From contig DUUM01000119.1 in assembly GCA_012841565.1 (NCBI GenBank), positions 1-64,000 on the forward strand: a stretch of DNA of 64,000 nt, given 5' to 3'. How positions within the stretch are numbered: position 1 is the stretch's first letter; the number at the start of each line of letters is the position of its first letter. This document shows positions 1 through 35,463 of this stretch, piece after piece. A model generated the notes under the pieces. It saw only the letters and a list, made by a program, of their open reading frames with translations, was not told the DNA's origin and searched no databases. This DNA comes from Candidatus Epulonipiscium sp. GTDB taxonomy: Bacteria; Bacillota_A; Clostridia; Lachnospirales; Cellulosilyticaceae. The translations under genes and the position numbers were made by a program.

Positions 1-985
1 TCTCATATCAATGGTGCTTATATTTTCTTTAAGAAAGTGATGCACCACAAAATCATCAAAATGACATATTTTAGTTTTGCTGGTACTCATTTTTACAAGT
101 CTCAAAGCTTCATTAGCCTGATTAAAAAGGTGTGTAAGATAGGTTTATATTTATTCTATGAAGGTCACACAAGTACTTGAGATTGTCTATATCTGTTATT
201 TTACCCATTAAGAGTTCGTCTAGAAAGTCTCTTCTGATCCTGTTTTTAGTTCTTTCAATTTCATTATTTCTGATTCGTTCCAGTGCAAAAGACATGGTAC
301 TGTGCTCAAGAGCCACATAGTCAATGTCTGAGAATTCCTTAACCGTTTTAAAAACGAGGATATAGCCATAATGTATATTTTGAATATAAACAGGTGTAAT
401 AAGCGTATCTATTGTATGACCTGGCAAATCAAGTTGTCTTGCCAAAGGTTTTTGGAGTAGCTCAAATTCAAGCGGAAGAGAGCTGATATACTTTGTATCA
501 AGTATTGTACTTCCCGAATCATTGCTCAGATAATCTTTGAGAGGATAAGGGTTTTCAACTCTATCAGACCAGTTAATAATGTTAAAAAACTTATCCATCA
601 GAATAACTGGATTGGATATCATTTCAGATAAAGCTTTAGAAATTTTAGAAACTCCGCCACCTTCCAAAGAAATTTTAAAAAAGGCCTGATGTATATCTAA
701 AGACTTCTTGTTTAAAATATCGTAATTTCCAGATAGTTCTGCCCGAATAACATCGGATATTTTTGAAAATGGCATACCGTATGGTATCTCAATTACGGGA
801 AGATTAAGTTCTTCCGCTAAAATTATAATGTTCTGCGGGATAGTGCCTAGGTATTTTTTGGGTTTAATACAAAGAGCAGGGCAGTTTATACTCCTTAATT
901 GCCTTACAACACGGTCCTGAATTTCTTGGCCCTCCTTAAAAAAATAACCTGAGGTTAATAGAAGTTCACCAGGAAAAAATCTCAT
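1..985 (-). pseudogene. PucR-family transcriptional regulator, broken (partial at window edge)
   Basis: This is a purine-catabolism-type regulator. The N-terminal PucR domain is recognisable from its PGELLLTSGY motif, about ten residues in. Family members normally have some 40-50 residues before this motif, so the N-terminus is missing. The reading frame stops at 122-124. One base out of frame, the sequence continues on the minus strand below 121 as a PucR C-terminus-like stretch (NQANEALRL, then CHFDDFVVHHFL). A run of five A's on the plus strand at about 123-127 would restore the frame if it were one base shorter. The roughly 100-residue central GGDEF-like region expected between these parts is also absent, so there is probably an internal deletion as well. 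The 5' end abuts the permease gene with no intergenic space. It probably once regulated the purine/oxamate genes beside it. The family call is fairly sure, and the damage is read directly. Confidence 0.75.
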
Positions 986-2337: not shown

Positions 2338-2802
2338 ATGGATTTAAAACTAGTAGAAGCTGCAGAGAATGAAGATATTGAACTGGTACGTTTGCTCATA
2401 GATAGCGGTGAACCAATAGACAAGCAGGATAAGGACGGTAGAACGCCTTTAATGGTAGCTGTTCAAAAAAACAATGTTGAATTGGTAAAGTTATTGTTAA
2501 GGCGAGGGGCAGATGTTAATAAGAGAGACATCAGTGCAAACCCAGATTACTTCTTCTATCTTTATCACAAATCAAATTATCTAAGGGAACTTGGAAAGCA
2601 CGAGGAAGCTGTAGAGGCAATGGATAAAGCCATTAAGGTAGATATTAATAACCCGCTTTATGTATTCCACAAAGCTCAGTCTCTTGCTCTAATGAAACGG
2701 TACTCGGGAGCTTTTGTATTACTTGAAGAAGTTGTAAAAGTGAAACCTACTGAGGTTTATATGAAAGAATTAGAAACTGTTAAAAAGGCAGCTAATAAAT
2801 AA
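2338..2802 (+). CDS. Small ankyrin-repeat/TPR-repeat protein
   Basis: This is a soluble 154-residue protein with no signal peptide. Residues 1-65 form about two ankyrin repeats (DGRTPLMVAVQKNNVELVKLLL is typical). Residues 75-150 read as two TPR-like helical hairpins (YFFYLYHKSNYLRELGKHEEA). The switch occurs in the middle of an ankyrin repeat, right after GADVNKRD, where another TPLH-type repeat would be expected. That suggests a fusion or internal deletion. Both repeat types mediate protein-protein contacts. The gene lies 25 bases after the permease and 19 before the DUF2877 gene, preceded by GGGAG, so it is probably co-transcribed with the oxamate cluster. The molecular role is unknown. 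Confidence 0.7.
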   Translation: MDLKLVEAAENEDIELVRLLIDSGEPIDKQDKDGRTPLMVAVQKNNVELVKLLLRRGADVNKRDISANPDYFFYLYHKSNYLRELGKHEEAVEAMDKAIKVDINNPLYVFHKAQSLALMKRYSGAFVLLEEVVKVKPTEVYMKELETVKKAANK

Positions 2803-2821
2803 GTGTTAGGAGGGTTGAGAT

Positions 2822-3685
2822 GTGAGGGGGATTTCATTACATGGTGAATTATTAAGAATCATAAGTCAGGGACTTAAATACGGAAAAGTACATTCAGTCT
2901 TTAATAGAACTATCAATATAATAGATGATAATGGATATATGATTTCTTTAATAACAAAAACTTTGGATGAAGCTCCCATTTCAATTCTCGTAGACACAAA
3001 AGATTTTAGTAGCAGTGGGATTTTAATTGGAAAAGATGTTTGTTTTAGCGAAAGAGAAGTTGCAGTGGGTTCTAATGTAATAGATATATCTAAAGCAAGA
3101 ACCTATGATCTTAAAAGAGGAACTTTTCGAGCTAATTATTCCTTGCTTGAAAAGAACCTTAAAATCCTAAGGCATCTTATGGACACCAAAGGGCCTAAGG
3201 AAACACAAAGTTTTGATCTTATGGCTTTTCAAATGGTTAGATCTCGAACGAAATCATTAAAAAGAGCCTGTCTTAGGGAAGATTTAAAAGAAATGACTAT
3301 ACTAGGTAGAAGTTTGATGGGCCTAGGCCAGGGGCTTACACCCTCAGGAGATGATGTTCTTATGGGATTGTTTCTAGTCCTAGGTCTTGAAGGCTCCCCT
3401 ATGAATTACCTTGATTTTATCTTGAGAGAAATAATTCAAGAAAAAACAGAAGATACGACAGATGTAAGTTATCAAGGTCTTTTAAGAGCTTCAAATGGAT
3501 TTTATAGAAGCATTCTTGTAGAAGCTGTAGAAGCCCTAACGACATGGGGAAATATAGAGCAAATCCTAATAGAGGTATTATCAATTGGACATTCATCAGG
3601 CCGAGATTTGCTCTATGGAATTCTAACTGGATATGAAATTTTAGTTGAAAAGGAGAATGGAAATGTCAATGAGGACAATTATTAA
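2822..3685 (+). CDS. allH: DUF2877 protein, putative oxamate carbamoyltransferase component (AllH/YlbF type)
   Basis: This is a soluble 287-residue protein of the DUF2877 family. The family hallmark GLGQGLTPSGDDVLMGLF lies at about residues 165-182, and a second conserved stretch, HSSGRDLLYG, lies near the C-terminus. The GTG start follows an AGGAGGG at 2809-2815; an overlapping ATG two bases upstream is followed immediately by TGA. It overlaps the FdrA gene. In E. coli the DUF2877, FdrA and DUF1116 genes sit together in the allantoin region and have been linked to oxamate carbamoyltransferase, which makes carbamoyl phosphate from oxalurate. The same trio here supports that role. The individual contribution of this subunit is not known to me. 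Confidence 0.8.
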   Translation: MRGISLHGELLRIISQGLKYGKVHSVFNRTINIIDDNGYMISLITKTLDEAPISILVDTKDFSSSGILIGKDVCFSEREVAVGSNVIDISKARTYDLKRGTFRANYSLLEKNLKILRHLMDTKGPKETQSFDLMAFQMVRSRTKSLKRACLREDLKEMTILGRSLMGLGQGLTPSGDDVLMGLFLVLGLEGSPMNYLDFILREIIQEKTEDTTDVSYQGLLRASNGFYRSILVEAVEALTTWGNIEQILIEVLSIGHSSGRDLLYGILTGYEILVEKENGNVNEDNY

Positions 3686-5210
3686 GAAAAACACTTATTT
3701 TGATTCGGTTTCTCTTATGGCTCTCTCAACAAAAGCCAATAATATTGAAGGAATTAAACGAGTTAATATAGCTATGGGAACTGCCATGAACAAAGAAGTT
3801 TTACAAAATGTAGGTCTTTATACAGATGAAATTGAAGAAGCTGGAAGAGGAGACCTTATGATTGTTGTTGAAGCTAAGGAAGGCTACAACTTAGATGATC
3901 TTATAGAAAAAATTGAAGAAGCAATGATCAGGAAAGAAGACAATAAAGGGGCTGCTAACCGGGTATATTCTGGTGTAGAAGCAGCAGCTAGGGATAATGT
4001 GGACTCTAATCTGGCTGTTATATCAGTAGCTGGAGCATATGCTGCAAGAGTCGCTAGAAAGGCCTTAAGAGAGGGTCTTCATGTCATGATGTTTAGTGAC
4101 AATGTATCACTAGAAGATGAGATTAGTCTAAAAAAAGAAGCCCACGAAAAAGGACTTCTTATGATGGGACCAGACTGTGGTACTGCTATCATTAATGGAA
4201 AAGGACTTTGCTTTGCAAATGGTGTTCGAAAAGGAAAAATAGGAATCGTTGCAGCATCAGGAACAGGTGCACAAGAAGTAAGTGTAAGAATTCATGATTT
4301 TGGTGGAGGTGTTTCCCAACTGCTTGGTACAGGTGGTAGAGATCTATCAGCTGAAGTAGGTGGAATAATGATGCTTGATGCAATGAGAGCACTGGCAGAT
4401 GATGCAGAAACCGAAATTATTGTCTTAGTATCAAAACCACCAGCAAAAGAAGTTGCAGAGAAAATATACAAAGAGGTAAAAAACACTCATAAACCTGTCG
4501 TTATCTGCTTTATTGGCGGAAATAAAGAAGAAATAGAAGCTTCAGGTGCACACTATGGAAAAACCACTAAACAAGCAGCACTTCAAGCGGTTATTCTTTC
4601 AGGTGTTCCTGAAGAAACAATTAATAAACGTTCCCTTAACCTTTCTTTAATTGATGAAATCAAGGTAAAACTTAATTCAGAGCAGAAATATATAAGAGGA
4701 TTGTTCTGCGGTGGAACAATCTGCGAGGAAGTTATGTCCTTAGTAAAAGAAAAATATCCAAACGTTTACAGTAATATATCAAAGGACCCAACCTATAAGT
4801 TGGAGAATTTAAATAAAAGTAAAGAACACACAATGATTGATTTTGGTGACGATAGCTTTACACAGGGAAGACCTCATCCTATGATTGATCCAAGTTTAAG
4901 ACTTGAAAGAATTGTTCAAGAAGCAAAGGATCCAGAAGTTGGTGTTATTGCTATGGATATAATTCTTGGATACGGTTCTCATGAGGATCCGGTTGAAGTA
5001 ACGTTACCTGCCATTAGAGAAGTTAATGCCATTGCTAAAAAAGAAGGAAGACATATTGAAATTCTTGCTTTTGTTCTTGGAACTGAACTTGATCCACAGA
5101 ACTTCGATCTCCAAGTTAAAAAGCTTATGGATGAAGGCGTAACCATTTCAAGTAGTAGTGAAAACACAGGGTTACTTTCTAGAGGATTTGTACAGAAGGA
5201 GGAAGTTTAG
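3663..5210 (+). CDS. fdrA: FdrA family protein (acyl-CoA synthetase-like)
   Basis: This is a 515-residue protein related to the alpha subunit of succinyl-CoA synthetase. A CoA-binding-like Rossmann region lies at about residues 110-190, and a ligase-like region begins at KIGIVAASGTGAQEVS (about 190). The family's GTGGRDLS motif follows. A TTG at 3645 also opens this frame, but ATG 3663 lies seven bases after AGGAG at 3651-3655 and gives the usual FdrA N-terminus, so it is preferred. It overlaps the DUF2877 gene by 23 bases and is followed at once by the DUF1116 gene, forming a tightly coupled operon. The family is associated with oxamate carbamoyltransferase in allantoin degradation. Confidence 0.85.
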   Translation: MSMRTIIKKNTYFDSVSLMALSTKANNIEGIKRVNIAMGTAMNKEVLQNVGLYTDEIEEAGRGDLMIVVEAKEGYNLDDLIEKIEEAMIRKEDNKGAANRVYSGVEAAARDNVDSNLAVISVAGAYAARVARKALREGLHVMMFSDNVSLEDEISLKKEAHEKGLLMMGPDCGTAIINGKGLCFANGVRKGKIGIVAASGTGAQEVSVRIHDFGGGVSQLLGTGGRDLSAEVGGIMMLDAMRALADDAETEIIVLVSKPPAKEVAEKIYKEVKNTHKPVVICFIGGNKEEIEASGAHYGKTTKQAALQAVILSGVPEETINKRSLNLSLIDEIKVKLNSEQKYIRGLFCGGTICEEVMSLVKEKYPNVYSNISKDPTYKLENLNKSKEHTMIDFGDDSFTQGRPHPMIDPSLRLERIVQEAKDPEVGVIAMDIILGYGSHEDPVEVTLPAIREVNAIAKKEGRHIEILAFVLGTELDPQNFDLQVKKLMDEGVTISSSSENTGLLSRGFVQKEEV

Positions 5211-5211
5211 A

Positions 5212-6642
5212 ATGATAAATGAACTTTTTAAAAATGAATTAGAAGTTGTAAATATCGGGCTAGAGATGTTTCGAGATGATTTATCTAGGCAAGGAATTAA
5301 GGTAAATCATGTTCAGTTTGCGCCACCAGCAGATGGTGATGAAGACGTTCTTGCAGCTTTAGATTATCTTGACTTGGGGCCTATTAAAGAAAAAATAGAA
5401 GCAGCTAACAAAGAAGTTGTTGAAAGGATTATTAATTCAACTCCAGTGCTTGTAGGATATGACAAGGCTATTAATGTTATTCCAGGAATGAAAAAGAATA
5501 TGATTATTCATGCAGGTCCTCCTATCAAGTGGGAGAATATGTGTGGCGCCATGAAGGGCGCAGTTACAGGGGCAATTGTATTTGAGGGACTTGCAAAAGA
5601 TATTGAAGAAGCAGAGCAAGTAGCTGCATCTGGCGCCATTGAGTTTTCGCCGTGTCACGAACATAACACTGTAGGATCCATGGCCGGGGTAACCTCGCCA
5701 TCTATGTATGTTCATATTGTTAAAAACAAGACTTATGGAAATATTTCCTACACAAATCTAAGTGAGCAACTTTCAAAGATACTTAGAATGGGTGCCAATG
5801 ATCAAAGTGTTATTGATAGACTTAACTGGATGAGGGATGTTCTTGGCCCAATGCTCAAGGAAGCCATGGAGATTGCTGGAGAGATTGATTTAAGACTTCT
5901 ATTATCCCAAGCACTTCACATGGGTGATGAGTGTCACAATAGAAACGTTGCGGGAACAACACTTCTGGTTCAAGCCCTTACACCTTATCTAGTACAAACC
6001 AAGTTTTCGCAGGAGGACAAGGTTGAAGTATTTAACTTTATTGGATCCTCAGATTATTTCTCAGGACCGACATGGATGGCCTTAGCAAAAAACGCACTAG
6101 ATTCAGCCCATGGCATAGAATACAGCACGATCCTTACAACTATGGCAAGGAACGGCGTTGAGTTTGGTATTAGAGTCAGTGGAATGGAAGGCAATACATG
6201 GTTTATAGGACCGGCGCAAAAGGTTATTGGACCATTGTTTGCTGGATTTAAACCTGAAGACTCAGGTCTTGATATAGGGGACTCTGCTATAACAGAGACT
6301 TATGGTATTGGCGGCTTTGCAATGTCAGCAGCTCTAGCCATCGTATCTCTTGTGGGTGGAACCGTTGATGAAGCTATTAACACCACAAGAAAGATGTACG
6401 AAATTACCACAACAGAAAATCAAAATGTAACCCTACCGATTCTAAACTTTAAAGGAATCCCGACTGGTATTGACTTAAGAAAGGTTCTTGAATCAGGCAT
6501 GTTACCTGTTATTAATACAGCTATTGCCCATAAGGAAGCAGGAATTGGTATGATTGGTGCTGGAATCACAAATCCTCCTATGGAATGCTTTAAAAAGGCG
6601 GCCATTGGATTGGCAGCTCATATTAGAACTTTAGAAGCATAA
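5212..6642 (+). CDS. ylbE: DUF1116 protein, putative oxamate carbamoyltransferase subunit (YlbE/AllG type)
   Basis: This is a 476-residue DUF1116 protein, the usual family length. Conserved features include HAGPPIKWENMCGAMKGA (about 100-117), FSPCHEHNTVGSMAGVTSPS (about 144-163) and HMGDECHNRN (about 240-249). The frame is open upstream, but ATG 5212 directly follows AGAAGGAGG at 5193-5201 and overlaps no family-specific residues, so it is chosen. It is the last gene of the permease-ankyrin-DUF2877-fdrA-DUF1116 operon and is followed by a hairpin terminator. It probably acts with FdrA and the DUF2877 protein to form carbamoyl phosphate and oxamate from oxalurate. No carbamate kinase, which would complete ATP recovery, lies in the window. 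Confidence 0.82.
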   Translation: MINELFKNELEVVNIGLEMFRDDLSRQGIKVNHVQFAPPADGDEDVLAALDYLDLGPIKEKIEAANKEVVERIINSTPVLVGYDKAINVIPGMKKNMIIHAGPPIKWENMCGAMKGAVTGAIVFEGLAKDIEEAEQVAASGAIEFSPCHEHNTVGSMAGVTSPSMYVHIVKNKTYGNISYTNLSEQLSKILRMGANDQSVIDRLNWMRDVLGPMLKEAMEIAGEIDLRLLLSQALHMGDECHNRNVAGTTLLVQALTPYLVQTKFSQEDKVEVFNFIGSSDYFSGPTWMALAKNALDSAHGIEYSTILTTMARNGVEFGIRVSGMEGNTWFIGPAQKVIGPLFAGFKPEDSGLDIGDSAITETYGIGGFAMSAALAIVSLVGGTVDEAINTTRKMYEITTTENQNVTLPILNFKGIPTGIDLRKVLESGMLPVINTAIAHKEAGIGMIGAGITNPPMECFKKAAIGLAAHIRTLEA

Positions 6643-8088: not shown

Positions 8089-8118
8089 TTGACGATAATA
8101 TATTTTTAGTGTTATACT
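8089..8118 (+). promoter_or_regulatory. Sigma-A promoter of carAB leader
   Basis: TTGACG at 8089-8094 and TATACT at 8113-8118 are separated by 18 bases. It is placed just upstream of the PyrR-type leader. Confidence 0.65.
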
Positions 8119-8149: not shown

Positions 8150-8325
8150 ATCGCCTTTAAATTGGTCCGAGAGGCCAGCAAGGAAGAACATACATATGCG
8201 TATGTATAGAGCAATGAGAATATAATCATTGTGATTTTTGGGAAAATATTGAATAAAACTTACCCGTTATGGGTTATTAGGGGCAATGAAAGATTGAAAT
8301 CAATCTATTTATTGTCTCTTTTTGT
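8150..8325 (+). promoter_or_regulatory. PyrR-type attenuator leader of carAB
   Basis: The leader contains TTGGTCCGAGAGGCCAGCAA at 8163-8182, which fits the PyrR-binding loop (GGTCC-GAGAGG-CC core) of pyr attenuators. Downstream, 8280-8318 forms a strong stem (GGGGCAATGAAAGATTG paired with CAATCTATTTATTGTCTC) followed by five T's at 8319-8323, which is a terminator. In Bacillus-type pyr regulation, UMP-bound PyrR stabilises the anti-antiterminator so that the terminator forms. The same logic is inferred here: carAB transcription falls when pyrimidines are plentiful. No pyrR gene lies in the window. A 76-codon open frame across this leader is not credible as a gene. Confidence 0.8.
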
Positions 8326-8420
8326 TGTCCCAATAAATAACTTTACTTACGAGGATGTAATACATTTCCTAACAAAAGAGTGGCTGTGTTACCATGTTGG
8401 AAAAGAGGAGTCGTGTAACT

Positions 8421-9482
8421 ATGAAAGCACAATTAATTTTAGAAAATGGAATGGTATTTGAAGGGCAGGCTTTTGGATATTTTAAAGAAAAAATTGGAGA
8501 GGTAATCGTTAATACGAGTATGACAGGTTATCAAGAGATCCTTACAAATCCTGCATACTACGGACAAATTGTCATTATGACCTACCCTATGATTGGAAAC
8601 TATGGTATCAACTTAGATGATATGCAATCAAAAAAGGTCCAGATAAAAGGGTTAGTGGTACGAGAGAAGTGTGATATTCCAAATAATTTTCGTTGTGAGT
8701 TAACATTGGATGGCTATATGAAGGCGAGTGGCATCATTGGTATTGAAGGAATCGATACAAGAGCTCTTGCTAAAGTTGTCAGGGAGTGCGGTGTTATGAA
8801 AGGTATTATTGCCGTTAGAGAATTGACACCGAGTCAGATTAAGTTGAAACTAGAGGCCTTTTCAAATAGTGAGGCAGTGGGTAAAGTAACAAGAGCAGAG
8901 ATTTCTTATATTGAGGGAACAGGTAAACATATTGGCATTGTTGATCTAGGGGTTAGACAAAGTGCCATTCATTCTCTAAAAGCCAAAGGATGTAAAATCA
9001 CATTATTTCCCGCATTCACAAGTGCTAAAGAATTTTTAGAGTCTAATTTTGACGGTATCTTAGTGTCGAGTGGCCCAGGATCGCCACATGACATACCCCA
9101 AGTGACAGAGGAAATTAAAAATCTGGTAGGAAAGATTCCTCTAATAGGGATGGGGTTAGGTCATCAAGTATTGGCCCTTGCCATAGGAGCAGAGGTTAGT
9201 AGATTGGGATTTGGCCATCACGGAGGCGCTCAATCTGTAAAAGATACACTGACCAATAGGATACAATCAACTTCTCAGACGCATAGTTACGTTGTTTCTA
9301 GGCTGCCAAGTGAAGCTGTTATTTCCCATATTAATATCAATGACGAAACCATAGAAGGTATGTATGTAAAAGAAAAAAGAATCTATAGCATTCAATTTCA
9401 TCCTCAGTCACCGACAGTAAGTGGTGAGATTGACTCAATCTATGATAACTTTCTAACTATAATCCAAGGAGGCCAACTATAA
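8421..9482 (+). CDS. carA: Carbamoyl-phosphate synthase small subunit with lost glutaminase triad
   Basis: This is a 353-residue class I glutamine amidotransferase subunit of carbamoyl-phosphate synthase. It normally hydrolyses glutamine and passes ammonia to CarB. The fold is intact ([27 protein letters not shown]), but the nucleophile in the usual ICLGHQ motif is glycine (MGLGHQ, residue 245, codon GGG at 9153). The triad glutamate of HPEAS is glutamine (HPQS, residue 329). Glutamine-binding positions are also altered (SQNHG reads SQTHS). It is therefore probably unable to use glutamine. ATG 8421 is chosen over an upstream in-frame ATG (8394) because it follows GAGGAG and gives the family N-terminus. 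Its stop overlaps the carB start (TAATG). Expression is controlled by the upstream PyrR-type leader. Confidence 0.9.
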
Positions 9483-12400
9483 TGCCAAGAGACATGAAGA
9501 TAAAAAAAGTATTAGTCATTGGATCAGGACCCATTGTTATTGGCCAAGCGGCAGAATTTGACTATTCAGGGACTCAAGCTTGCCAAGCGCTCAAAGAAGA
9601 AGGCGTAGAAGTTGTTCTAGTCAATAGTAATCCAGCCACAATCATGACCGATAAAGATGTGGCAGATAAAATATATATAGAACCTTTGAATATTGGATTT
9701 ATAGAAAAAATCATTGCAAAGGAAAGACCAGATAGCTTACTTGCAGGCGTGGGCGGACAAACAGGGCTTAACCTTGCAGTTGAACTAGATGATCAGGGCA
9801 TTCTTGAAAAATATGGTGTGCGGGTTATAGGGTCTCAAATTAGTGCTATTAAAGAAGGTGAAGATCGTGAGAAGTTTAGAGATCTTATGAACCGGATTAA
9901 CCAGCCTATGATTGAAAGTAAGACTATAGAAACAGTAGAAGATGCGGTGGAATTTTCACATAAAATCGGATATCCAATCGTTGTTAGACCGGCTTATACA
10001 TTAGGAGGTACAGGTGGTGGAATTGCCGAGACAGAAGAAGAGTTAAAGGAAATATGCGCCCATGGTTTACATTTGTCAAGGGCTAAACAAGTCCTAATAG
10101 AAAAATGTATTAGAGGCTGGAAAGAAATTGAATACGAAGTTATGCGAGATAGTTTTGGAACAGCCATTGCTATTTGTAACATGGAAAATATTGACCCAGT
10201 AGGGATTCATACAGGGGATAGTATTGTTATAGCACCGACCCAAACATTATCTGATAAAGAACATCAAATGCTACGGAAGGCATCTTTAGATATTATATCG
10301 GAGTGTGACATAAGGGGAGGGTGTAATGTTCAGTTAGCGCTTCATCCTGAAAGCTTTGAGTACGCTGTTATAGAAATTAATCCACGTGTTAGTCGTTCAT
10401 CAGCTTTAGCATCCAAAGCTACAGGCTATCCTATTGCTAGGGTAACTGCCAAAATAGCCTTAGGTTATGGACTTCATGAGATTATTAATGAAATAACAGG
10501 TAACACATATGCTTGTGTTGAACCTACCTTAGATTATGTAGTTGTTAAAATACCGAAGTGGCCTTTTGATAAGTTTTATAAAGCAAATAGGTCCTTAGGG
10601 ACAAAAATGATGGCAACAGGTGAAGTTATGGCCATAGGTACTAGCTTTGAGTCAGCCTTCTTAAAGGGAATTAGATCTCTAGAAATTGGTCAGTATTCTC
10701 TTTATCATCATAAGCTCATGGGGAAATCCTTAGATGAATTAAAGAAACTAGTCGTAGTTCCAGACGACGAACGTATTTTTGTTTTAGCATCTATGCTAAG
10801 GATGCAATACAGGGAAGAGCAAATATGTAAGATTACAGGAATGGATTCATTTTTTATAAAAAAAATAAAGTGGATTGTGGAGGAAGAAGAAAAACTAACA
10901 CAAATGAGATTCGAAGATTTAACTCCAAAATATTTAATGCAACTCAAAAAAAGGGGTTTTGCAGATAAAGGAATTGCTCAATTAATAGGTGTAACAGAAG
11001 ATGATCTGAGGCAATTAAGAGAGAAGTGGAAAATTATACCTGTCTATAAAATGGTTGATACCTGTGCAGGGGAGTTTGGAGCCAAGTCTCCATACTACTA
11101 TTCTACCTATGATACAACAGATGAAGTAACTGTTTCGGATAAGAAAAAGGTTATTGTTATGGGTTCAGGTCCTATTCGAATTGGTCAAGGAATAGAGTTT
11201 GATTACTGCTCGGTACACGCTATTATGGCGCTAAAGGAGCAAGGCATTGAAACGATTATCATTAACAATAATCCCGAGACTGTTAGTACAGATTTTCATA
11301 CATCAGATAAGCTTTATTTTGAACCATTGACTGATGAAGATGTGTACCATATTATTCAAAAAGAAAAACCAATGGGTGTCATCTTACAATTTGGCGGGCA
11401 AACAGCTATTAAGCTAGCTAAGTTTTGTGAGAAAATGAATATTACAGTTTTAGGGACACAACCAAAGCAAATGGATGAGGCGGAAGATCGGGAAAAGTTT
11501 GATGCTATTTTAGAGAAACTAGATATAAAACGTCCAAAAGGTAAAGCCATTTGGAACATTACGGAAGGTTTAAAGGCTGCTGATGAGTTAGGATATCCAG
11601 TGTTAGTAAGGCCTTCTTATGTGTTAGGTGGGCAAGGAATGGAAATAACCTATGAAAAAGAGCAACTATCTAGATATCTTGAAAATGCCTTTGACAGGGA
11701 TACGGAGAATCCTGTCCTAATTGATAGGTACTTAATGGGGCGTGAAATAGAAGTAGATGCCATTTGTGATGGGGAAGATATTTTAATCCCAGGCATTATG
11801 GAGCACCTAGAAAGAGCAGGTATACATTCTGGAGATAGTACGAGTATTTATCCTAGTATTCATATATCCCAGGCAATAAAAAATAAAATATTAGAATACA
11901 CTAAACTTTTAGCAAAAGAGTTAAAAGTAATTGGAATGATTAATATTCAATATATAGAGTATGAGGATGAACTTTATATTATTGAAGTTAACCCTCGTTC
12001 AAGTCGTACGGTACCCTATATTTCAAAGGTAACAGATGTTCCAATCATCTCTATAGCAACTAGGATTATCTTAGGTGAAAAACTTTCAGATATGCCTTGG
12101 GGAAGTGGTTTATATCCTGAAATTAAAAATCGGTATGCGGTTAAGGTACCCGTTTTTTCAACAGAAAAACTACCATTAGTTGAAGTGAGCTTAGGACCTG
12201 AAATGAGATCCACAGGAGAAGTTTTAGGTGTTGGGGAAACGATTGAAGAAGCTCTTTATAAAGGATTTGCGGCAGCAGGAAATAGGCTTCCTAAAAAAAA
12301 TGGAATCGTTTTGGCTACGGTACAAAAACACGATAGAGACGAATTTATGCAAATAGCAAAACGCTTCGCAGCATGCGGATACAAATTTATAGCCACAAAA

Positions 12401-12703
12401 GGAACAGCAAAGCAATTACTAGAAAATGGAGTTGTATCTGAAGTTGTGGGTAAGATTAGCGAAAAAAGACCTAATATCTTAGACACAATCAGAAGTGGCC
12501 AAATTGATATTGTTATAAATACACCAACTAAAGGGAATGATTCTCATAGAGATGGATTTCAAATTCGCCGAAGTGCTATAGAGGCTTCCTTACTAGTCGT
12601 AACCTCCTTAGATACAGTCAAGGCCATGTTAGATATTATTGAAAAGGGAATGACAATAGAAGGCGCTCAGGTTTATGATATGGGAAAGCAATTAATTAAA
12701 TAG
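9482..12703 (+). CDS. carB: Carbamoyl-phosphate synthase large subunit
   Basis: This full-length 1073-residue synthase makes carbamoyl phosphate from bicarbonate, ammonia and two ATP. Two tandem ATP-grasp halves are visible: [20 protein letters not shown] at the start and [20 protein letters not shown] at about residue 556. ATP-grasp glycine loops lie at about 175 (GGTGGGI) and about 719 (GGQGM). The last 130 residues form the MGS-like allosteric domain ([11 protein letters not shown]). No catalytic gap was noticed. It overlaps carA by one base, with AGGAGG in the end of carA as its ribosome-binding site. Because its partner CarA looks glutaminase-dead, this enzyme may run on free ammonia. 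Confidence 0.95.
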
Positions 12704-12794: not shown

Positions 12795-13256
12795 TTAAGC
12801 GTTGAAAGCTATATTAATTTCGATTGGTATATCGTCTGCAAAAAGTTGAACGCATAGAATCTGGCCAGTTCCCATTTTTAAGGATATACTGTCTCCTTGA
12901 AGTAAGGTAGGTGTTGAGATATCAATCAAAACGCCTATGCTGGAAAAAAGAGTAACAGCACTTGCTGTTAGCATATTGGATAGTTCTGATAATGCACTTT
13001 TTTCCATTTCGCCTAATTCATCTACAGGCATACCCATCATCATTTTGGATGCTACTTGTTTTGCTGATTCTAAATCCAGGGAATAAGCGACATTTCCTTT
13101 GATTCCCCCAACGATACCAACTAATATAAGTATACCGGAACTAACTAATTCCTTGTTTTTTACACTTAATGTACCTTTTCGTATTTCTGAAAACCCTAAT
13201 TGGGGCATAATAGAAGTAAATGATTCCATAAAAGGATTAATATTTTTTACATCCAA
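12795..13256 (-). CDS. cheX: CheX-family chemotaxis phosphatase-like protein
   Basis: This is a 153-residue CheC/CheX/FliY-family protein; such proteins dephosphorylate CheY-P. The family signature is seen as ALSELSNMLTASA (about residues 88-100), where the E and N are the catalytic pair. A GNVAYSLDLESAKQVASKMM strand-helix unit also fits. It overlaps the upstream response-regulator/CheX gene by 10 bases, so translation is probably coupled. The pair is not beside flagellar or other che genes. Its target may be the receiver domain encoded next to it. Confidence 0.82.
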   Translation of the reverse strand: MDVKNINPFMESFTSIMPQLGFSEIRKGTLSVKNKELVSSGILILVGIVGGIKGNVAYSLDLESAKQVASKMMMGMPVDELGEMEKSALSELSNMLTASAVTLFSSIGVLIDISTPTLLQGDSISLKMGTGQILCVQLFADDIPIEINIAFNA

Positions 13257-14110
13257 TTTGTAACACTCCTTTTAAATCCGACATTAAGAAATATTTCCCC
13301 AAAATCAGTTTTTGCCAGCACAGTGGTTGTAGTGAAATTTGGTGGGGATATGACAACTTTTTCCCCGCGAAGTATTGACGGCGGTGCGACACGAAGACCT
13401 AATGCTTTATTCTTACGGTTAAGGATGGAGGATGCGTTCCCTGAAATGATATTAGCAAACTCCCCCAGTGCTAAAAGAACCTCGTTGTGATCCATTGGTT
13501 CTCTTCGTAAAACTGCACTTACTAAATTAGTAGCAGTTTCTTTAGAGAGGTCAATTAACATCCTACCAGGGAATTCGCCAATAATCCCAACGATAATAGA
13601 GATGCCTTTAGAGGTAAATTCTTTCTCCTGAGGATATTCTGCGTCATATGTGATAAGGGTTTTTGTCATCTTATTGAAGCAATCTAGTAGACTCTCTTTA
13701 AATATTGAACAATGGGTGTCTTCTAGAAAACGATATAACTCATCAGAATTTACAATTCTCTTAACGGCAATAATCAGTTCATCTGGATCGACAGGTTTTT
13801 GGATATAAGCAGATACATTGTTTTTCTTTGCTTCTTTTACTATTTCATCATCCATCATGGAACTTACAACAATCACTTTAATATTTTCGTTAATTTTATG
13901 TATGGCACGGGTACACTCAAAGCCATCTGTACCAGGTAATGTCATATCCATTGTTACTAAAGCGGGATTGCTTTTTGCTACAACCTCTTTCACCCCTTCT
14001 AAAGAGCTAGCCTCTCCAACAACAGTAAAACCATTATCTTCAAGAATATTTCTTAGCATTGCGATTGAAAAAGGTGAATCATCAACAATAACGATTCCAT
14101 TTTCGTTCAT
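13247..14110 (-). CDS. Response regulator receiver domain fused to CheX-like domain
   Basis: This is a 287-residue two-domain protein. Residues 1-120 are a CheY-like receiver: the acidic pocket is DD at 10-11, the phosphoacceptor is in TMDMTLPG (about 54-61), and the lysine is in IQKPVDP (about 105). Residues 130-285 are CheX-like (GISIIVGIIGEFPGRMLID, then ALGEFANIISGNASS, with the E/N pair preserved). A receiver carrying its own phosphatase-type domain implies fast auto-dephosphorylation, or sequestration of the partner CheX. It is the first gene of a two-gene operon reading leftward. GGAGG precedes the ATG at 14110. Confidence 0.85.
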   Translation of the reverse strand: MNENGIVIVDDSPFSIAMLRNILEDNGFTVVGEASSLEGVKEVVAKSNPALVTMDMTLPGTDGFECTRAIHKINENIKVIVVSSMMDDEIVKEAKKNNVSAYIQKPVDPDELIIAVKRIVNSDELYRFLEDTHCSIFKESLLDCFNKMTKTLITYDAEYPQEKEFTSKGISIIVGIIGEFPGRMLIDLSKETATNLVSAVLRREPMDHNEVLLALGEFANIISGNASSILNRKNKALGLRVAPPSILRGEKVVISPPNFTTTTVLAKTDFGEIFLNVGFKRSVTNWM

Positions 14111-15122: not shown

Positions 15123-15132
15123 AATAGCATAT

Positions 15133-15220
15133 TAAGGGTGCTCGATGAATCGGGCTGAGAGGAGACGTATGAGTCTCTAACCTTCGAACCTGATCTGGAT
15201 AATGCCAGCGTAGGAATAAT
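15133..15220 (+). promoter_or_regulatory. TPP riboswitch (THI element)
   Basis: The thi-box core is clear: GGGTGCTC near 15137, GGCTGAGAGGAGAC at 15153-15166, then CCTTCGAACCTGATCTGGAT and AATGCCAGCGTAGGAA from 15181 on. With the hairpin terminator at 15254-15286 it should shut off the downstream thiamine-precursor transporter when thiamine pyrophosphate is abundant. Confidence 0.95.
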
Positions 15221-15253
15221 AGCGTACTGTTTTTTGTATAGGTATTGTATATT

Positions 15254-15286
15254 ATCCTCTCTGGCCCTGGGTCAGGGAGGATTTTT
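15254..15286 (+). terminator. Riboswitch-controlled terminator
   Basis: A 12-bp stem with G-U pairs (ATCCTCTCTGGC paired with GTCAGGGAGGAT) is followed by TTTT. It sits between the TPP aptamer and the first gene, as the expression platform would. Confidence 0.8.
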
Positions 15287-15317
15287 AATGTTTTATAAAT
15301 ATAAAGGAGGCAAAATA

Positions 15318-15614
15318 ATGAACGCAAGTGTTGCGATTCAAGTATTACCAGGAGTTCAGGATATAGATTTAGTGTGTGAGATTGTAGATGAGGTCATCGC
15401 CTATATAAAAAGTACAGGCCTATCTTACTATGTAGGACCATTTGAGACCGCTATTGAAGGTGAATATGATGACCTAATGGAAATTGTTAAACAGTGTCAA
15501 TACATTGCTATTAAAGCAGGGTGTCCATCAGTTATGTCTTATGTAAAGATTAATTTTAAGCCAGAGGGCGGTGTTCTAACAATTGATAAAAAGGTTACAA
15601 AGCATCACAAATAA
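15318..15614 (+). CDS. MTH1187/YkoF-type thiamine-binding protein
   Basis: This is a 98-residue protein of the MTH1187 (thiamine-binding, DUF77-like) family; relatives bind thiamine or its hydroxymethylpyrimidine precursor in the cytoplasm. MNASVAIQVLPG at the start and YYVGPFETAIEGEYDDLMEI (residues 34-53) are typical. ATG 15318 follows AAGGAGG at 15304-15310; the open frame upstream runs through the terminator and is not used. It is the first gene of the TPP-riboswitch operon. The next gene starts within its last 32 bases. Confidence 0.85.
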   Translation: MNASVAIQVLPGVQDIDLVCEIVDEVIAYIKSTGLSYYVGPFETAIEGEYDDLMEIVKQCQYIAIKAGCPSVMSYVKINFKPEGGVLTIDKKVTKHHK

Positions 15615-16368
15615 GATTTCATCATCTATAGCAGTCGTAGGAATTCTTGTTAGTTGGCAACTCCTATCGGCTGTAAAGATTGTCCCGAAATATATGTTGC
15701 CATCACCCTTAGATGTGATAAGAGCTTTGATACTAGATTTTCCACTGCTCATGCATCATGCAAGATTTACCCTATTAGAAGCATTTTTTGGGTTGACAAT
15801 AGGAGTGCTGTTAGGATTTGCCATTGCTGTTCTGATGGACCGATTTGAAATTATATACAAAGCAATTTATCCAGTACTAGTGATTACCCAGACCATACCA
15901 ACTGTAGCCATAGCCCCTTTGCTTGTTCTGTGGCTAGGCTACGGCATGGCACCTAAAATAACGCTGATTGTTATTGTAACATTTTTTCCCATTACAGTAG
16001 GACTTCTAGATGGCTTTATGTCTGCTGATGTAGATACCATAAAACTTTTGAGATCTATGAAGGCTTCAAGAGGACAGATTTTTAGGCACATTAAATTACC
16101 AAGTGCTTTATCACATTTTTTTGCAGGCCTTAGAATTTCAGTCTCTTATTCAGTCGTAGGTGCGGTGATTGCAGAATGGTTAGGTGGCTACAGTGGGCTA
16201 GGCGTTTATATGACAAGGGTAAAAAAATCCTACGCTTTTGACAAAATGTTTGCAGTCATCTTGCTTATATCTGTCATTAGCCTGTTGCTAATGTGGGGGG
16301 TAACCACTGTTCAAAAATTTAGTATGCCATGGACTAACAATGAAAGTGATTTAAAACAAGAAACTTAA
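15583..16368 (+). CDS. ABC transporter permease, thiamine-precursor uptake (ThiX-like)
   Basis: This is a 261-residue permease of the SsuC/TauC-like binding-protein-dependent family. It has six membrane segments and the cytoplasmic EAA-type loop at about residues 140-170. The TTG at 15583 is the only suitable start and overlaps the preceding gene; the next ATG would remove the first membrane helix. It works with the binding protein and ATPase that follow. The TPP riboswitch and the NMT1-type binding protein point to uptake of a pyrimidine precursor of thiamine (formylaminopyrimidine-type). Confidence 0.85.
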   Translation: MIKRLQSITNKISSSIAVVGILVSWQLLSAVKIVPKYMLPSPLDVIRALILDFPLLMHHARFTLLEAFFGLTIGVLLGFAIAVLMDRFEIIYKAIYPVLVITQTIPTVAIAPLLVLWLGYGMAPKITLIVIVTFFPITVGLLDGFMSADVDTIKLLRSMKASRGQIFRHIKLPSALSHFFAGLRISVSYSVVGAVIAEWLGGYSGLGVYMTRVKKSYAFDKMFAVILLISVISLLLMWGVTTVQKFSMPWTNNESDLKQET

Positions 16369-16378
16369 GGAGCATAAA

Positions 16379-17353
16379 ATGAAATCAAAATTAGTATTTT
16401 TAATATGTATATTAGGAATAGGGATAGGTATAGCAGGATGTAGTAAGAAGGATGATAAAATAAGTATTGTTCTTGACTGGACACCTAACACAAATCATAC
16501 AGGTTTATATGTCGCCCAAGAGCTGGGCTACTTTGAAGAGTTAGGCCTTAATGTAGATATTATTCAACCACCAGAAGGTGGGGCTACAACTCTCGTAGCA
16601 TCAGGGAAAGCTGAATTTGGAATTGACTTTCAAGACAGTATAGCTCCTGCTTTTGCTACAGATGAGCCTCTACCAGTAACAGCAGTAGCAACGCTTATTC
16701 AGCATAATACATCCGGTATTATATCTCTAAAAGATAATGGAATCGACACACCCAAGGGAATGGCAGATAAAGTCTATGCAACGTGGGATTTACCAGTGGA
16801 GAAAGCAATTATCAGACAAGTGGTTGAAGCTGATGGGGGAGATTATAACGCCATTAACATGATACCTAGCACAGTAGCTGATGTTATAACAGCGCTTAAT
16901 ACAAATGTAGATGCTGTATGGGTGTATTATGCTTGGGATGGTATTGCAACCAAGGTAAAAGGTATAGAAACAGATTACTTTGCATTTAAGGATATTGATC
17001 CGGTGCTCGACTATTATAATCCTATAATCGTGAGTAATAATACATACCTTGAGAAAAATGAAGAGCAAGCTAAAGCAGTTTTAAAGGCAGTGGCTAAAGG
17101 GTATGAATATGCTATAGAAAACCCAGAAGATGCAGCTAACATACTAGTGAAAGCTAACCCTGAGCTAGATATGGCCATCGTACAAGAAAGTCAAAAATGG
17201 CTTGCAGATCAATATAAGGCAGAAGTTAGCCAATGGGGATATATCGATGCTAATAGGTGGGATAACTTCTATCAGTGGCTATCACAAAAAAATCTTATTG
17301 AACAAGAAATTCCATTAGGATATGGGTTTACAAACAAATATCTTTCAGAATAG
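16379..17353 (+). CDS. NMT1/THI5-like thiamine-precursor-binding lipoprotein (ThiY-like)
   Basis: This is a 324-residue substrate-binding protein with a lipoprotein signal: a hydrophobic stretch ends in IAGCS, with lipid-modified Cys21. The NMT1/THI5-like signature is plain: VLDWTPNTNHTGLYVAQELG at about residues 32-51, GYFEELGLNV, and then ASGKAEFGIDF. Family members bind aminopyrimidine precursors of thiamine outside the membrane. It is 10 bases after the permease gene and 12 before the ATPase gene. Confidence 0.9.
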   Translation: MKSKLVFLICILGIGIGIAGCSKKDDKISIVLDWTPNTNHTGLYVAQELGYFEELGLNVDIIQPPEGGATTLVASGKAEFGIDFQDSIAPAFATDEPLPVTAVATLIQHNTSGIISLKDNGIDTPKGMADKVYATWDLPVEKAIIRQVVEADGGDYNAINMIPSTVADVITALNTNVDAVWVYYAWDGIATKVKGIETDYFAFKDIDPVLDYYNPIIVSNNTYLEKNEEQAKAVLKAVAKGYEYAIENPEDAANILVKANPELDMAIVQESQKWLADQYKAEVSQWGYIDANRWDNFYQWLSQKNLIEQEIPLGYGFTNKYLSE

Positions 17354-17365
17354 AGGAAAACACGT

Positions 17366-18109
17366 ATGAGTAAGCTTAGTGCAAACAATATATCAAAATC
17401 CTACAATAACAAAGAGATCATAAAAGATATTACATTACAGTTATATGAAGGAGAAATTGTGTGCCTACTAGGAGTAAGTGGTGTTGGAAAAACTACATTA
17501 TTTAATATACTATCAGGCCTACTATCTCCAGATGAAGGTAGTGTATTATTAGATAATACGGATATAACAGGGGAAGCGGGACAGATTAGTTATATGCTAC
17601 AAAAAGACTTGTTACTGCCGTATAAAAAGGTTATTGACAATGTCTCTTTACCACTCGTTATAAAGGGAGAAAACAAGCCAGATGCAAGATTTACAGCAGA
17701 AAGTTACTTTGAAATGTTCGGCATTGATGGTACCCAAAACAAGTATCCACACCAGCTATCAGGCGGAATGAGGCAACGGGCAGCACTTTTACGTACTTAT
17801 TTGTTTTCACAGGATGTGGCGCTTTTAGATGAGCCATTTAGCGCCCTAGACACCATTACTAAAAGTAAAATGCATGGTTGGTATCTTGAGGTTATGGAGA
17901 AGATTAAATTATCAACCTTGTTTATCACACATGATATAGATGAAGCGATTATATTATCAGATCGTATTTATATTATGACAGGGATGCCGGGAAAAATAAC
18001 ATCAGAAATAAAGATTCATCATCCTAAACCAAGAGAAGATGAGTTCATTTTAAGCCCGGAATTTATTACTTACAAAAGAGAGATTATCCAAACTTTGGCA
18101 AGTGATTAG
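17366..18109 (+). CDS. ABC transporter ATP-binding protein (ThiZ-like)
   Basis: This is a 247-residue ABC ATPase of the nitrate/taurine/thiamine-precursor branch. The Walker A motif is GVSGVGKTT (residues 35-43), the signature is LSGGMRQR, and Walker B is VALLDEPFSALD, followed by an H-loop (FITHDIDEAI). It energises the preceding permease and lipoprotein. It is the last gene of the TPP-riboswitch operon and is followed by a terminator. Confidence 0.88.
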   Translation: MSKLSANNISKSYNNKEIIKDITLQLYEGEIVCLLGVSGVGKTTLFNILSGLLSPDEGSVLLDNTDITGEAGQISYMLQKDLLLPYKKVIDNVSLPLVIKGENKPDARFTAESYFEMFGIDGTQNKYPHQLSGGMRQRAALLRTYLFSQDVALLDEPFSALDTITKSKMHGWYLEVMEKIKLSTLFITHDIDEAIILSDRIYIMTGMPGKITSEIKIHHPKPREDEFILSPEFITYKREIIQTLASD

Positions 18110-32823: not shown

Positions 32824-35463
32824 ATGAAAAAATTAGTCATTGGAATATTAGCACATGTAGATGCTGGTAAGACGACATTATCAGAAAGTATGCTTTATTT
32901 GAGCGGTAAAATTAGGACATTAGGAAGAGTAGATAAGAAGGATGCTTATTTAGATAATTATGATTTGGAACGAGAAAGAGGAATCACTATTTTTTCTAAA
33001 CAAGCAGTATTTGAGGTGGACAAAACTCAGATTACTTTATTAGATACGCCAGGACACATAGATTTTTCCGCTGAGATGGAGAGAACGCTTCAGGTGTTGG
33101 ACTATGCAATCTTAGTTATAAGCGGCGCAGATGGCGTACAGGGTCACACACAAACACTGTGGCGACTACTAAGTATGTATAAGATACCTGTTTTTATATT
33201 TATCAATAAGATGGATCAAGAAGGAACCAATAAGAATAAACTAATCAAGGAACTAAAAAGACAGCTTAGTGATGGCTGTATTGCGTTTGGTAGGGAAAAG
33301 GAAGAAGTCTTTTATGACCAATTAGCCATGAGTGATGAGACGCTGATGGAAACTTACTTGGAAACAGGCCATATAGAAACCACCCAAATTACACAAGTCA
33401 TTAAAGAGCGCAAGGTATTTCCATGTTTTTTTGGGTCTGCTTTAAAATTAGAAGGGGTTGAAGCCCTTATAAAAAATATTGTAAAGTATACTAATGCACC
33501 CACTTATTCACAAAGCTTTGGAGCGAAAATATTTAAGATAGCCAGAGATGAGCAAGGCAATCGACTCACTTATATGAAGCTCACTGGAGGGATAATGAAA
33601 GTAAAAGATACTTTAACCAATGACATTTGGGAAGAGAAAGTAAATCAAATTCGGATCTATTCAGGAGAGAAATTTGAAAAGGTGAATGAAATAGAAGCGG
33701 GATCCATATGTGCAGTAGTGGGCCTTACTCAGGCGCGGCCAGGAGAAGGACTCGGAATAGAGAGGACTTCCCTTGCGCCTTTATTAGAACCTGTATTATC
33801 TTATCAAGTGTTGCTCCCAGAAGGCTGTGATCCAAGAGTCATGCTACCTAAGCTGCGTGAGATTGAGGAAGAGGAACCAGAGCTACATATTGTTTGGAAT
33901 GAGGAGTTACAAGAAATTCAGGCACAGATTATGGGAGAAGTACAAATAGAGATTTTACAAAGTCTTATACAAGATCGTTTTGATACCCTTGTGAAATTTT
34001 ATAAAGGAAGCGTTGTTTATAAAGAGACCATTGCCAATAAGGTGGAGGGGGTTGGACATTTTGAACCCCTAAGGCATTATGCAGAGGTTCACTTGTTAAT
34101 GGAGCCAGGAGCTTTAGGAAGTGGTTTGCAATTTGCTACCCAATGCAGTGAGGATATATTAGAAAAAAACTGGCAGCGACTAGTTATATCGCATCTTGAG
34201 GAAAAAATCCATAAAGGTGTGCTGACAGGTTCAGCCATTACAGATATAAAAATTACCTTAGTGACAGGACGAGTCCACAAAAAACATACTGAAGGTGGCG
34301 ACTTTAGAGAAGCGACCTACAGGGCAGTGCGCCAAGGATTAAAACAGGCCAGATCCATATTGCTAGAGCCTTATTATGAATTCCAATTAGAACTCCCTAG
34401 CCAAATGGTAGGACGCGCTATGACTGATATTGAGCAAATACATGGTACATGTGAAATTTCCCAAACAGATGAAGAGATAACAATGCTAGTAGGAAGTGCT
34501 CCTGTTGTTAATATGAGAAATTATCATCAAGAGGTCATTTCCTATACAAAAGGCCATGGTAGGTTGTTTTGTAGTTTAAAGGGCTACCAGCCGTGCCATA
34601 ATGCAGAAGAAGTGATCGGGGATAGGGGATATGATTCTGAAAGAGATACAGAAAATCCAACCGGTTCTGTGTTTTGTACACATGGTACTGGATTTTTAGT
34701 CAATTGGGATGAAGTTGAAGACCATATGCATGTTGACTATTATTTTAAGCAAGAAGAAGTCGTATCACAAGAAGTAAGCCAATATAAACCTAGTTTTGCA
34801 AATGAAACATGGATGAGTGTAGAAGAAATTGATGAGATTATCAATAGAACCTTCAATGCTAACAAAGGGAAAAAGACTGCTTGGACTAAGCCTAAAATAG
34901 TCAGGGGGAATTATTCTGAACCGACGGCACATTTAAGTAGGGCAAAAGAAGTCAGGGAAGAGTATCTCCTGGTGGATGGCTATAATATTATCTTTGCATG
35001 GCCTGAACTAAAGAGCATGGTAGAAGATAATATGGATGGTGCTAGGATGAAACTCCTTGATTATTTAAGTAACTATCAAGGCATTCGGGGATCTCGTGTG
35101 ATTGTGGTATTTGATGCTTACCGTGTTAAGGGACACCGCACCGAGATAACGGAGTACCATAATATTCACGTAGTCTATACAGAAGAAGCCCAAACAGCAG
35201 ACCATTATATTGAAAAGTTTGTCTATACGCACCATGGAAAGCACCATATAACAGTGGCCACATCAGATGCGCTAGAACAAATTATTATAAGAGGAAAAGC
35301 AGGCGCCTTACTATCTGCTAGGGAACTAAAAGAAGAAGTGGACAAAGCGAATGAAAGAATGATGCAGGCATACGAAGCAAACCAAATAGCAGATAAGAAT
35401 TATCTTATGGATGCATTACCAGAAGAAATAAAACGGCGTATTGAAACCTTCCTAAGGGAATAA
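32824..35463 (+). CDS. TetM/EF-G-like ribosomal GTPase fused to C-terminal NYN (YacP/Rae1-like) domain
   Basis: This is an 879-residue protein. Residues 1-650 are a TetM/TetO-type translational GTPase: G1 AHVDAGKTTLSES, G3 DTPGHIDF, G4 NKMD, with EF-G-like domains III-V after. Residues about 715-860 form a NYN nuclease-like domain (LLVDGYNIIFAWPELK, RVIVVFDAY, then ITVATSDALEQ) as in YacP/Rae1, which cleaves mRNA in the ribosomal A site. The fusion suggests a factor that enters the A site and cuts mRNA or clears a blocked ribosome; this is inference. It may not confer tetracycline resistance. It is a single gene with no nearby mobile element. Confidence 0.85.
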   Translation: MKKLVIGILAHVDAGKTTLSESMLYLSGKIRTLGRVDKKDAYLDNYDLERERGITIFSKQAVFEVDKTQITLLDTPGHIDFSAEMERTLQVLDYAILVISGADGVQGHTQTLWRLLSMYKIPVFIFINKMDQEGTNKNKLIKELKRQLSDGCIAFGREKEEVFYDQLAMSDETLMETYLETGHIETTQITQVIKERKVFPCFFGSALKLEGVEALIKNIVKYTNAPTYSQSFGAKIFKIARDEQGNRLTYMKLTGGIMKVKDTLTNDIWEEKVNQIRIYSGEKFEKVNEIEAGSICAVVGLTQARPGEGLGIERTSLAPLLEPVLSYQVLLPEGCDPRVMLPKLREIEEEEPELHIVWNEELQEIQAQIMGEVQIEILQSLIQDRFDTLVKFYKGSVVYKETIANKVEGVGHFEPLRHYAEVHLLMEPGALGSGLQFATQCSEDILEKNWQRLVISHLEEKIHKGVLTGSAITDIKITLVTGRVHKKHTEGGDFREATYRAVRQGLKQARSILLEPYYEFQLELPSQMVGRAMTDIEQIHGTCEISQTDEEITMLVGSAPVVNMRNYHQEVISYTKGHGRLFCSLKGYQPCHNAEEVIGDRGYDSERDTENPTGSVFCTHGTGFLVNWDEVEDHMHVDYYFKQEEVVSQEVSQYKPSFANETWMSVEEIDEIINRTFNANKGKKTAWTKPKIVRGNYSEPTAHLSRAKEVREEYLLVDGYNIIFAWPELKSMVEDNMDGARMKLLDYLSNYQGIRGSRVIVVFDAYRVKGHRTEITEYHNIHVVYTEEAQTADHYIEKFVYTHHGKHHITVATSDALEQIIIRGKAGALLSARELKEEVDKANERMMQAYEANQIADKNYLMDALPEEIKRRIETFLRE

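Follow-up and report, generated by a model that had tools for sequence, protein, structure and literature searches.

Analysis of a 64,000-nucleotide stretch of DNA, hereafter the window, showed a carA gene without the residues for glutamine hydrolysis, followed directly by an intact carB. This carAB pair (8421-12703) probably encodes a biosynthetic carbamoyl phosphate synthetase (CPS) which has lost glutamine hydrolysis and takes ammonia directly, with CarA as a structural subunit and with probable PyrR-type control. The loss of the glutaminase chemistry, with the CarA fold and CarB kept, is strongly supported; the use of ammonia as donor, its entry route, the binding of CarA to CarB, the control by PyrR and the role in pyrimidine supply are what we infer. 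The loss is wider than first noted, being present in a clade formed by the window CarA and its nearest relatives, in Fusobacteriaceae and in Omnitrophota, and it is a bacterial counterpart of the CPS I change. Below, a CarA which keeps Cys-His-Glu is called live and a glutaminase-null one is called null.

The carA gene and its partner carB

The features of the region are summarized in Table 1. The listed ORF begins at 8394, and the ATG at 8421 is favoured as the start by an AGAGGAG stretch (by eye) and by the alignment; residue numbers count from 8394, and Gly254 is residue 245 counted from the Met at 8421.

Table 1. Features in and around carAB in the window
Feature	Position	Strand	Basis
allH, allF (FdrA/AllF) and allG (oxamate carbamoyltransferase), in a row	2822-6642		family matches
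Promoter-like TTGACG-18-TATACT, TG before the second hexamer	8089..8118	+	motif scan
PyrR-binding-site-like leader, core GGTCCGAGAGGCC	8150..8239	+	30.2 bits (RF00515 gathering score, 54)
18-bp hairpin followed by a T-rich run, candidate attenuator terminator	8279..8326	+	fold (z -2.5 for the 180-nt leader)
carA, glutaminase-null CPS small subunit, 353 aa	8421..9482	+	listed ORF from 8394
Ala54 at the place of E. coli Ser47	8553..8555	+	alignment
Gly254 (GGG) at the place of the catalytic Cys (E. coli Cys269)	9153..9155	+	codon reading, alignment
Gln280 at the place of E. coli His295	9231..9233	+	alignment
Thr296 at the place of E. coli Asn311	9279..9281	+	alignment
Gln338 (CAG) at the place of the triad Glu (E. 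coli Glu355)	9405..9407	+	codon reading, alignment
TVSGE loop, residues 341-345, at the place of PGPxD (E. coli 358-362)	9414..9428	+	alignment
carB, full-length CPS large subunit, 1073 aa	9482..12703	+	ORF, family matches

The preliminary description had read the Cys of the ICLGHQ motif as Gly, HPE as HPQ and SQNHG as SQTHS. Codon reading confirmed all three (GGG at 9153-9155; HPQ, residues 336-338; SQTHS, residues 294-298). Of the triad required of a glutamine-hydrolyzing CPS, the Cys and the Glu are thus missing and the His is retained as His336, two residues before Gln338. A substitute Cys at the nucleophile place, which would have spoken against that description, is absent: the Cys residues of the window CarA are those at 93, 101, 132 and 200, all of them ahead of the motif region. 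Further changes fall at Ser47 and Asn311 of E. coli CarA, which we take to have glutamine-binding roles, at Asp45, whose equivalent in the window CarA is Asn, and at the PGPxD loop, which, with the residues near 359-361, presumably lies beside the ammonia tunnel. The protein nevertheless has the CarA architecture, a CPSase small-chain N-domain (PF00988, 170.7 bits) followed by a class I GATase domain (PF00117, 123.4 bits), both above cut-off, and the model TIGR01368 ('glutamine-hydrolyzing') still names it (357 bits against a cut-off of 307.35).

The CarA fold and a full-length carB, both expected from the preliminary description, were borne out. The predicted CarA model has high confidence and an intact fold, with matches of 340-348 residues to E. 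coli CarA and human CPS1; the structures matched include 1m6v (the G359F mutant) and a C269S structure, as judged by PDB title. The first base of carB is the last base of the carA stop, and the 1073-aa ORF is intact. Of 44 positions of CarB chosen for comparison, 38 are equal to E. coli and six differ (Asp207 to Glu, Asp904 to Glu, Glu892 to Val, Ser948 to Thr, Lys954 to Arg and Thr1043 to Ser). The live relative G182 shares all six differences except the one at 954, where it has Gln. A quick tree placed the window CarB as sister to six CarBs from the family (SH-aLRT 99).

The loss is shared by the nearest relatives

A protein search with the window CarA passed 7843 matches, of which the best 120 were listed and read; P0001 among them is the protein of the window itself. 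The next three, P0002 (80% identical), P0003 (78%) and P0004 (71%), all have Gly/His/Gln at the Cys/His/Glu places, and the remaining 116 have CLGHQ and HPE. Since Gly/His/Gln is common to the window CarA and its three relatives, the loss is clade-wide and not an error. Two base changes separate Cys from GGG, as the preliminary description pointed out, and the lack of the same residues in these three proteins, which are 71-80% identical, also speaks against a sequencing error. At the Asn311 place P0004 has Cys and the other three clade members have Thr. With a live reference of 191 sequences (116 from this search and 75 from the search with L013 described below), 20 positions which are at least 97% conserved in live CarAs were altered in the window CarA and in all three relatives. 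The closest live matches among the best 120 are labelled mostly Cellulosilyticaceae, Epulopiscium and Cellulosilyticum. Note that the GATase GPG motif reads GPA in many live Cellulosilyticaceae-type CarAs, such as P0016 and P0033.

The window clade was also sought in 392 genomes of the order and 24 of the family, where the best full-length match was 58% identical, and a scan of the genome contigs gave 56% at best. Two partial matches were higher: G182 with 68% over residues 8-177, whose other piece has a live CLGHQ and HPE, and G013 with 59% over residues 9-235, ending before the catalytic place.

Null CarAs in Fusobacteriaceae and Omnitrophota

An active-site check of the fetched loci covered 115 matches, including duplicates of one place; under a strict motif test, 11 of those extending to the active site did not pass. 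The CarAs of L012 (Fusobacterium sp.) and L013 (Fusobacteriaceae) and the second CarA of L042 (Omnitrophota) are null. Eight of the 11 retain Cys, His and Glu and merely vary around them (for example CMGHQ or CLGQQ), and L113 was flagged solely because its match stops early. The 120 matches listed in a search with L013 comprise 75 live CarAs, 44 of the Fusobacterium null type and a 99% copy of L013. In a search with the second L042 copy, all 120 matches listed lack the motif Cys, one of them being a fragment which ends before the later motifs.

The Fusobacteriaceae null CarAs (L012, L013, L124 and L125) resemble the window CarA in having lost catalytic residues, in having a CarB and in being altered at several of the same conserved positions. 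They differ in the replacements: the main Fusobacterium set has Cys to Val, His to Met and Glu to Asp, and L013 has Cys to Gly and His to Asn with the Glu kept. They also form branches apart from the window clade in both the CarA and the CarB trees. In the Omnitrophota set (L042 8995-10125 and the 120 listed matches), Cys and His are replaced and the Glu is aligned to a gap; unlike the window CarA, this type lies on a very distant branch and, in the one genome examined (G400), occurs together with a live CarA. In L042 the ORF after the live carA (554 aa, 2748-4412) amounts to just about half a carB; behind the null carA, the second of the two, the start of another carB lies at the end of the contig (10112-10585).

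We reconstructed a CarA tree from 59 chosen sequences. The four members of the window clade were grouped (100/100), and this clade joined ten live Cellulosilyticaceae-type CarAs (100/99). L013 joined the Fusobacterium null set (99/96), and the tree needs three live/null changes. A CarB tree by a quick method (30 rows, none from Omnitrophota) also needs three, because the L013 CarB falls outside a group of live and null Fusobacteriaceae (supports 80 and 97). As the two trees place L013 differently, it may or may not be a separate loss event. To count such changes as losses assumes, beyond the tree counts, that the glutaminase is ancestral.

Overlap of altered positions and constraint on null CarAs

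Of 116 conserved positions, all members of the window clade were altered at 20 and all members of the Fusobacterium set (45 sequences) at 18. Ten positions are common to both against 3.1 expected (P = 4.7e-5), and with seven named active-site residues removed there are still eight against 1.93 (P = 3.4e-5); the hypergeometric test used treats positions as equal, which their clustering around one site violates. The overlap of the window clade with the Omnitrophota set (119 sequences, one fragment dropped) was seven against 3.1 expected (P = 0.015; P = 0.033 after removal of the active-site residues), and that between Fusobacterium and Omnitrophota was six against 2.8 (P = 0.034), falling to three against 1.93 (P = 0.30) after removal. 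As a control we took 12 distant live CarAs, each altered at 12-20 of the 116 positions; none of the 12 had an excess overlap (P at least 0.24 with the window set and at least 0.17 with the Fusobacterium set), suggesting that the window/Fusobacterium overlap goes with the loss and not with distance. The more specific positions are Asn204, Ile205, Asp244, Pro358 and Gly359 (E. coli numbers), which are intact in 11 or 12 of the 12 controls. Some other positions were dropped as marks of the loss. His295 is altered in all four null sets and is Gln in human CPS1, but Gln is also present in three of the 12 distant live CarAs; position 195 is Leu in 11 of the 12 controls, and position 223 varies among them.

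The ratio of GATase to N-domain distances describes how the null proteins have changed. Its median was 1.35 within the window clade (six pairs), 1.59 within live Cellulosilyticaceae-type CarAs (45 pairs; ten sequences chosen from 116) and 2.0 between the window and the live CarAs (40 pairs), which we read as faster change on the stem followed by ordinary constraint. In the Fusobacterium null set the ratio was 2.84 (nine of ten pairs from five chosen sequences, one pair being too close), against 1.12 in the live CarAs of the Fusobacterium comparison (36 pairs; nine chosen from 75), suggesting that the constraint on the GATase domain is relaxed there. The dN/dS values (NG86) of null Fusobacterium carA (three genes, three pairs) were 0.14-0.19 for the whole gene and 0.21-0.26 for the GATase domain, and those of two live pairs were 0.11-0.12 and 0.16-0.19, respectively. 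The null Fusobacterium carA is under purifying selection, with the GATase domain in partial relaxation.

Leader and neighbourhood of the window carAB

Upstream of carA lie a promoter-like site, a PyrR-binding-site-like leader and a candidate attenuator terminator (Table 1). The promoter-like site is weak on its own, because 18 such sites occur in the region against 13.1 expected. The PyrR-like element has the core motif and the hairpin and scores below the RF00515 gathering score, with E-values of 0.14 over 2,401 bases and 0.021 over 371 bases; the terminator hairpin was not listed by a simple scan. The window contains a single match to the core GGTCC(N)GAGAGGCC, where 0.05 matches are expected per mononucleotide-shuffled window, and seven relative loci together contain one, ahead of pyrB in L139. 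The L139 leader scores 36.3 bits and is also under the gathering score of 54. The element was found in L139 only of four longer relative loci, in none of 12 short relative loci reaching just 1.5 kb upstream, and in none of four Fusobacteriaceae loci.

In L139-L142 carAB lies inside a pyrB-pyrC-pyrF-carA-carB-pyrK-pyrD-pyrE run, and in L138 a pyrF-like gene precedes it (gene names by eye). No pyr genes adjoining carAB were noticed by eye in the ORF list of the window. In the Fusobacteriaceae loci L012, L013 and L132, pyr genes do not adjoin the null carA; in L132 a pyr-type run starts about 8 kb further on. On the upstream side of the window carA there are allH, allF and allG, separated from it by an opposite-strand gene and a flavin-reductase-like gene; no carbamate kinase beside them was noticed by eye in the ORF list. 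The allFGH genes of E. coli are described, in a passage of PMC11326118, as forming an operon with allK for anaerobic allantoin breakdown, and this breakdown releases ammonia (PMC12535856). The neighbourhood fits the use of ammonia without proving it.

Several other features of the window are recorded here. Upstream of allH, the ORFs at 984-2312 and 122-985 (-) had no family match. Past carB, at 12795-14110, are two opposite-strand ORFs; by eye, one resembles a CheX-like protein and the other a response regulator that includes a CheX-like part. A TPP riboswitch (70.8 bits) is followed by a small ORF and an apparent ABC transporter for a thiamine precursor (by eye) at 15124-18109, and at 32824-35463 a translation-factor-like GTPase has an extra C-terminal stretch resembling an NYN-type nuclease domain (by eye).

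Whole-genome context in Fusobacteriaceae

Four Fusobacteriaceae genomes of unstated completeness (G398, G399, G405 and G406) each gave one carA match, which is null (cut-offs: E <= 1e-20 for G398 and G399; E <= 1e-30 for G398, G405 and G406). Each also gave one transcarbamoylase match, with aspartate carbamoyltransferase (PyrB) above cut-off in all four, and this gene sits in a run of pyr-type genes. In G398, dihydroorotate dehydrogenase, orotidine decarboxylase and a dihydroorotase-family protein, all above cut-off, follow PyrB, and the run also includes a relative of the electron-transfer subunit just under cut-off. Carbamate kinase was above cut-off in none of the eight genomes searched, with weak matches below cut-off in six, and it passed the cut-off in two of 14 control genomes. 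GMP synthase keeps its Cys in all four null genomes (the family scan named it in G406 only), indicating that the loss does not extend to class I GATases at large in these genomes. Loss of glutamine synthetase was rejected as a driver: a match was present in six of the eight Fusobacteriaceae genomes, and the two without one are a null (G399) and a live (G402) genome, giving no pattern with null carA.

Ammonia use and alternative explanations

Ammonia use is the best reading because CarB looks intact, the clade is conserved, the leader is PyrR-like and whole genomes offer parallels. Under this reading, glutamine hydrolysis would have been lost and ammonia would enter the CPS directly. CarB would still form carboxyphosphate, carbamate and carbamoyl phosphate, and CarA would stay bound as a structural partner with its former glutaminase site and the neighbouring loop remodelled. 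Expression of carAB would probably be set by pyrimidine supply through a PyrR-type attenuator. Mutants of E. coli CarA at Cys269 retain ammonia activity. For human CPS1, a passage of PMC4655335 describes a possible path by which external ammonia bypasses the dead site; E. coli CPS may have this path too, though it is less clear there. Since E. coli CPS can take ammonia and CPS1 may have such a path, the window enzyme most likely uses ammonia with CarA as a scaffold. According to a passage of PMC6245113, however, E. coli CPS can use ammonia only at very high concentration, which is likely to be physiologically irrelevant; a better affinity for ammonia must therefore be assumed for the window enzyme. 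The preliminary description had proposed that the small subunit is kept for structure or allostery. The structural part agrees with the conserved N-domain and with purifying selection in Fusobacterium, and the allosteric part gained no specific support, because effector sites lie in CarB, as a passage of PMC6245113 states.

The main live alternative is that the genome of the window also has a normal, glutamine-using carAB and that the window pair is a specialised second CPS for times of plentiful ammonia. A live and a null CarA do occur on one contig in the Omnitrophota genome G400, three genomes of one order (G001, G002 and G004) have two CarA places, the second of which may be live or null, and the carAB of live relatives lies beside pyr genes whereas that of the window stands apart. 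But the window CarB is sister to the six family CarBs rather than a deep paralogue, and of the 24 family genomes 18 have one CarA place, one (G095) has two and four have none, G182 having one CarA which is apparently cut across two contigs. We regard a second CPS as rather unlikely on this evidence. Far less probable is a reversed, catabolic CarAB, converting carbamoyl phosphate from AllFGH to ATP in place of a carbamate kinase that would be missing. Only the neighbourhood favours a link between AllFGH and carAB: allH, allF and allG are present, inspection of the ORF list by eye brought up no carbamate kinase gene, and E. coli has allFGH in an operon with allK (passage in PMC11326118). Against it, carA is preceded by a promoter-like site and a PyrR-like leader of its own, two genes separate it from allG, and CPS is described in a passage of PMC6022934 as irreversibly consuming two ATP.

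It is highly improbable that carA is a decaying pseudogene or owes its changes to misassembly. Decay would fit the missing catalytic residues and the faster change of the GATase domain between the window and live CarAs (2.0, against 1.59 among the latter); however, the frame is open, the fold model is of high confidence, three relatives at 71-80% identity have the same losses, and the ratio within the clade (1.35, six pairs) is no higher than in live enzymes. An assembly error would, moreover, have to make two base changes to turn Cys into GGG. Hydrolysis of glutamine through another nucleophile is just as hard to credit: His336 is kept in all four clade sequences and P0004 has its Cys at the Asn311 place, but that Cys is Thr in the other three, the window CarA has no Cys after residue 200, and the triad Glu and Ser47 are lost as well.

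Comparison with known enzymes and significance

E. coli CarAB (CPS II type; TIGR01368 and TIGR01369) shares with the window pair the separate subunits, the domains, the CarA fold, most of the compared CarB residues and the carA-carB order, and it has the triad Cys and Glu, Ser47, Asn311 and the PGPxD loop which the window CarA has lost. Human CPS1 likewise keeps an inactive glutaminase-like domain, judged for the window by sequence and modelled fold. Its catalytic Cys is replaced by Ser, that of the window CarA by Gly, and both have Gln at the place of E. coli His295, as do three of the 12 distant live CarAs. Unlike the window CarA, human CPS1 keeps the triad Glu and PGP. It is also one fused chain activated by N-acetylglutamate, as a passage of PMC4655335 describes, whereas the window CPS is encoded by two ORFs. 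In Oreochromis Alcolapia, CPS III is described in PMC7657897 as having shifted independently towards ammonia; it is an animal enzyme, likened here without sequence comparison.

Taken together, the results make it reasonably likely that bacteria have a CPS I-like class, that is, ammonia-dependent two-subunit CPSs with a glutaminase-null CarA, which evolved at least three times (in a Clostridia clade nearest Cellulosilyticaceae, in Fusobacteriaceae and in Omnitrophota). Remodelling around the dead site would have affected overlapping positions in the window and Fusobacterium lineages. Some organisms would have such an enzyme as their only source of carbamoyl phosphate, which is at odds with the view that every bacterial CPS uses glutamine. 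Among the open-licence PMC papers listed, none deals with a glutaminase-null bacterial CarA, which is weak evidence of novelty. The NCBI model hides such proteins under 'glutamine-hydrolyzing'. As natural variants, null-CarA enzymes would test the roles of the small subunit beyond making ammonia, as well as the entry of external ammonia, and they would give independent bacterial counterparts of the change behind CPS I.
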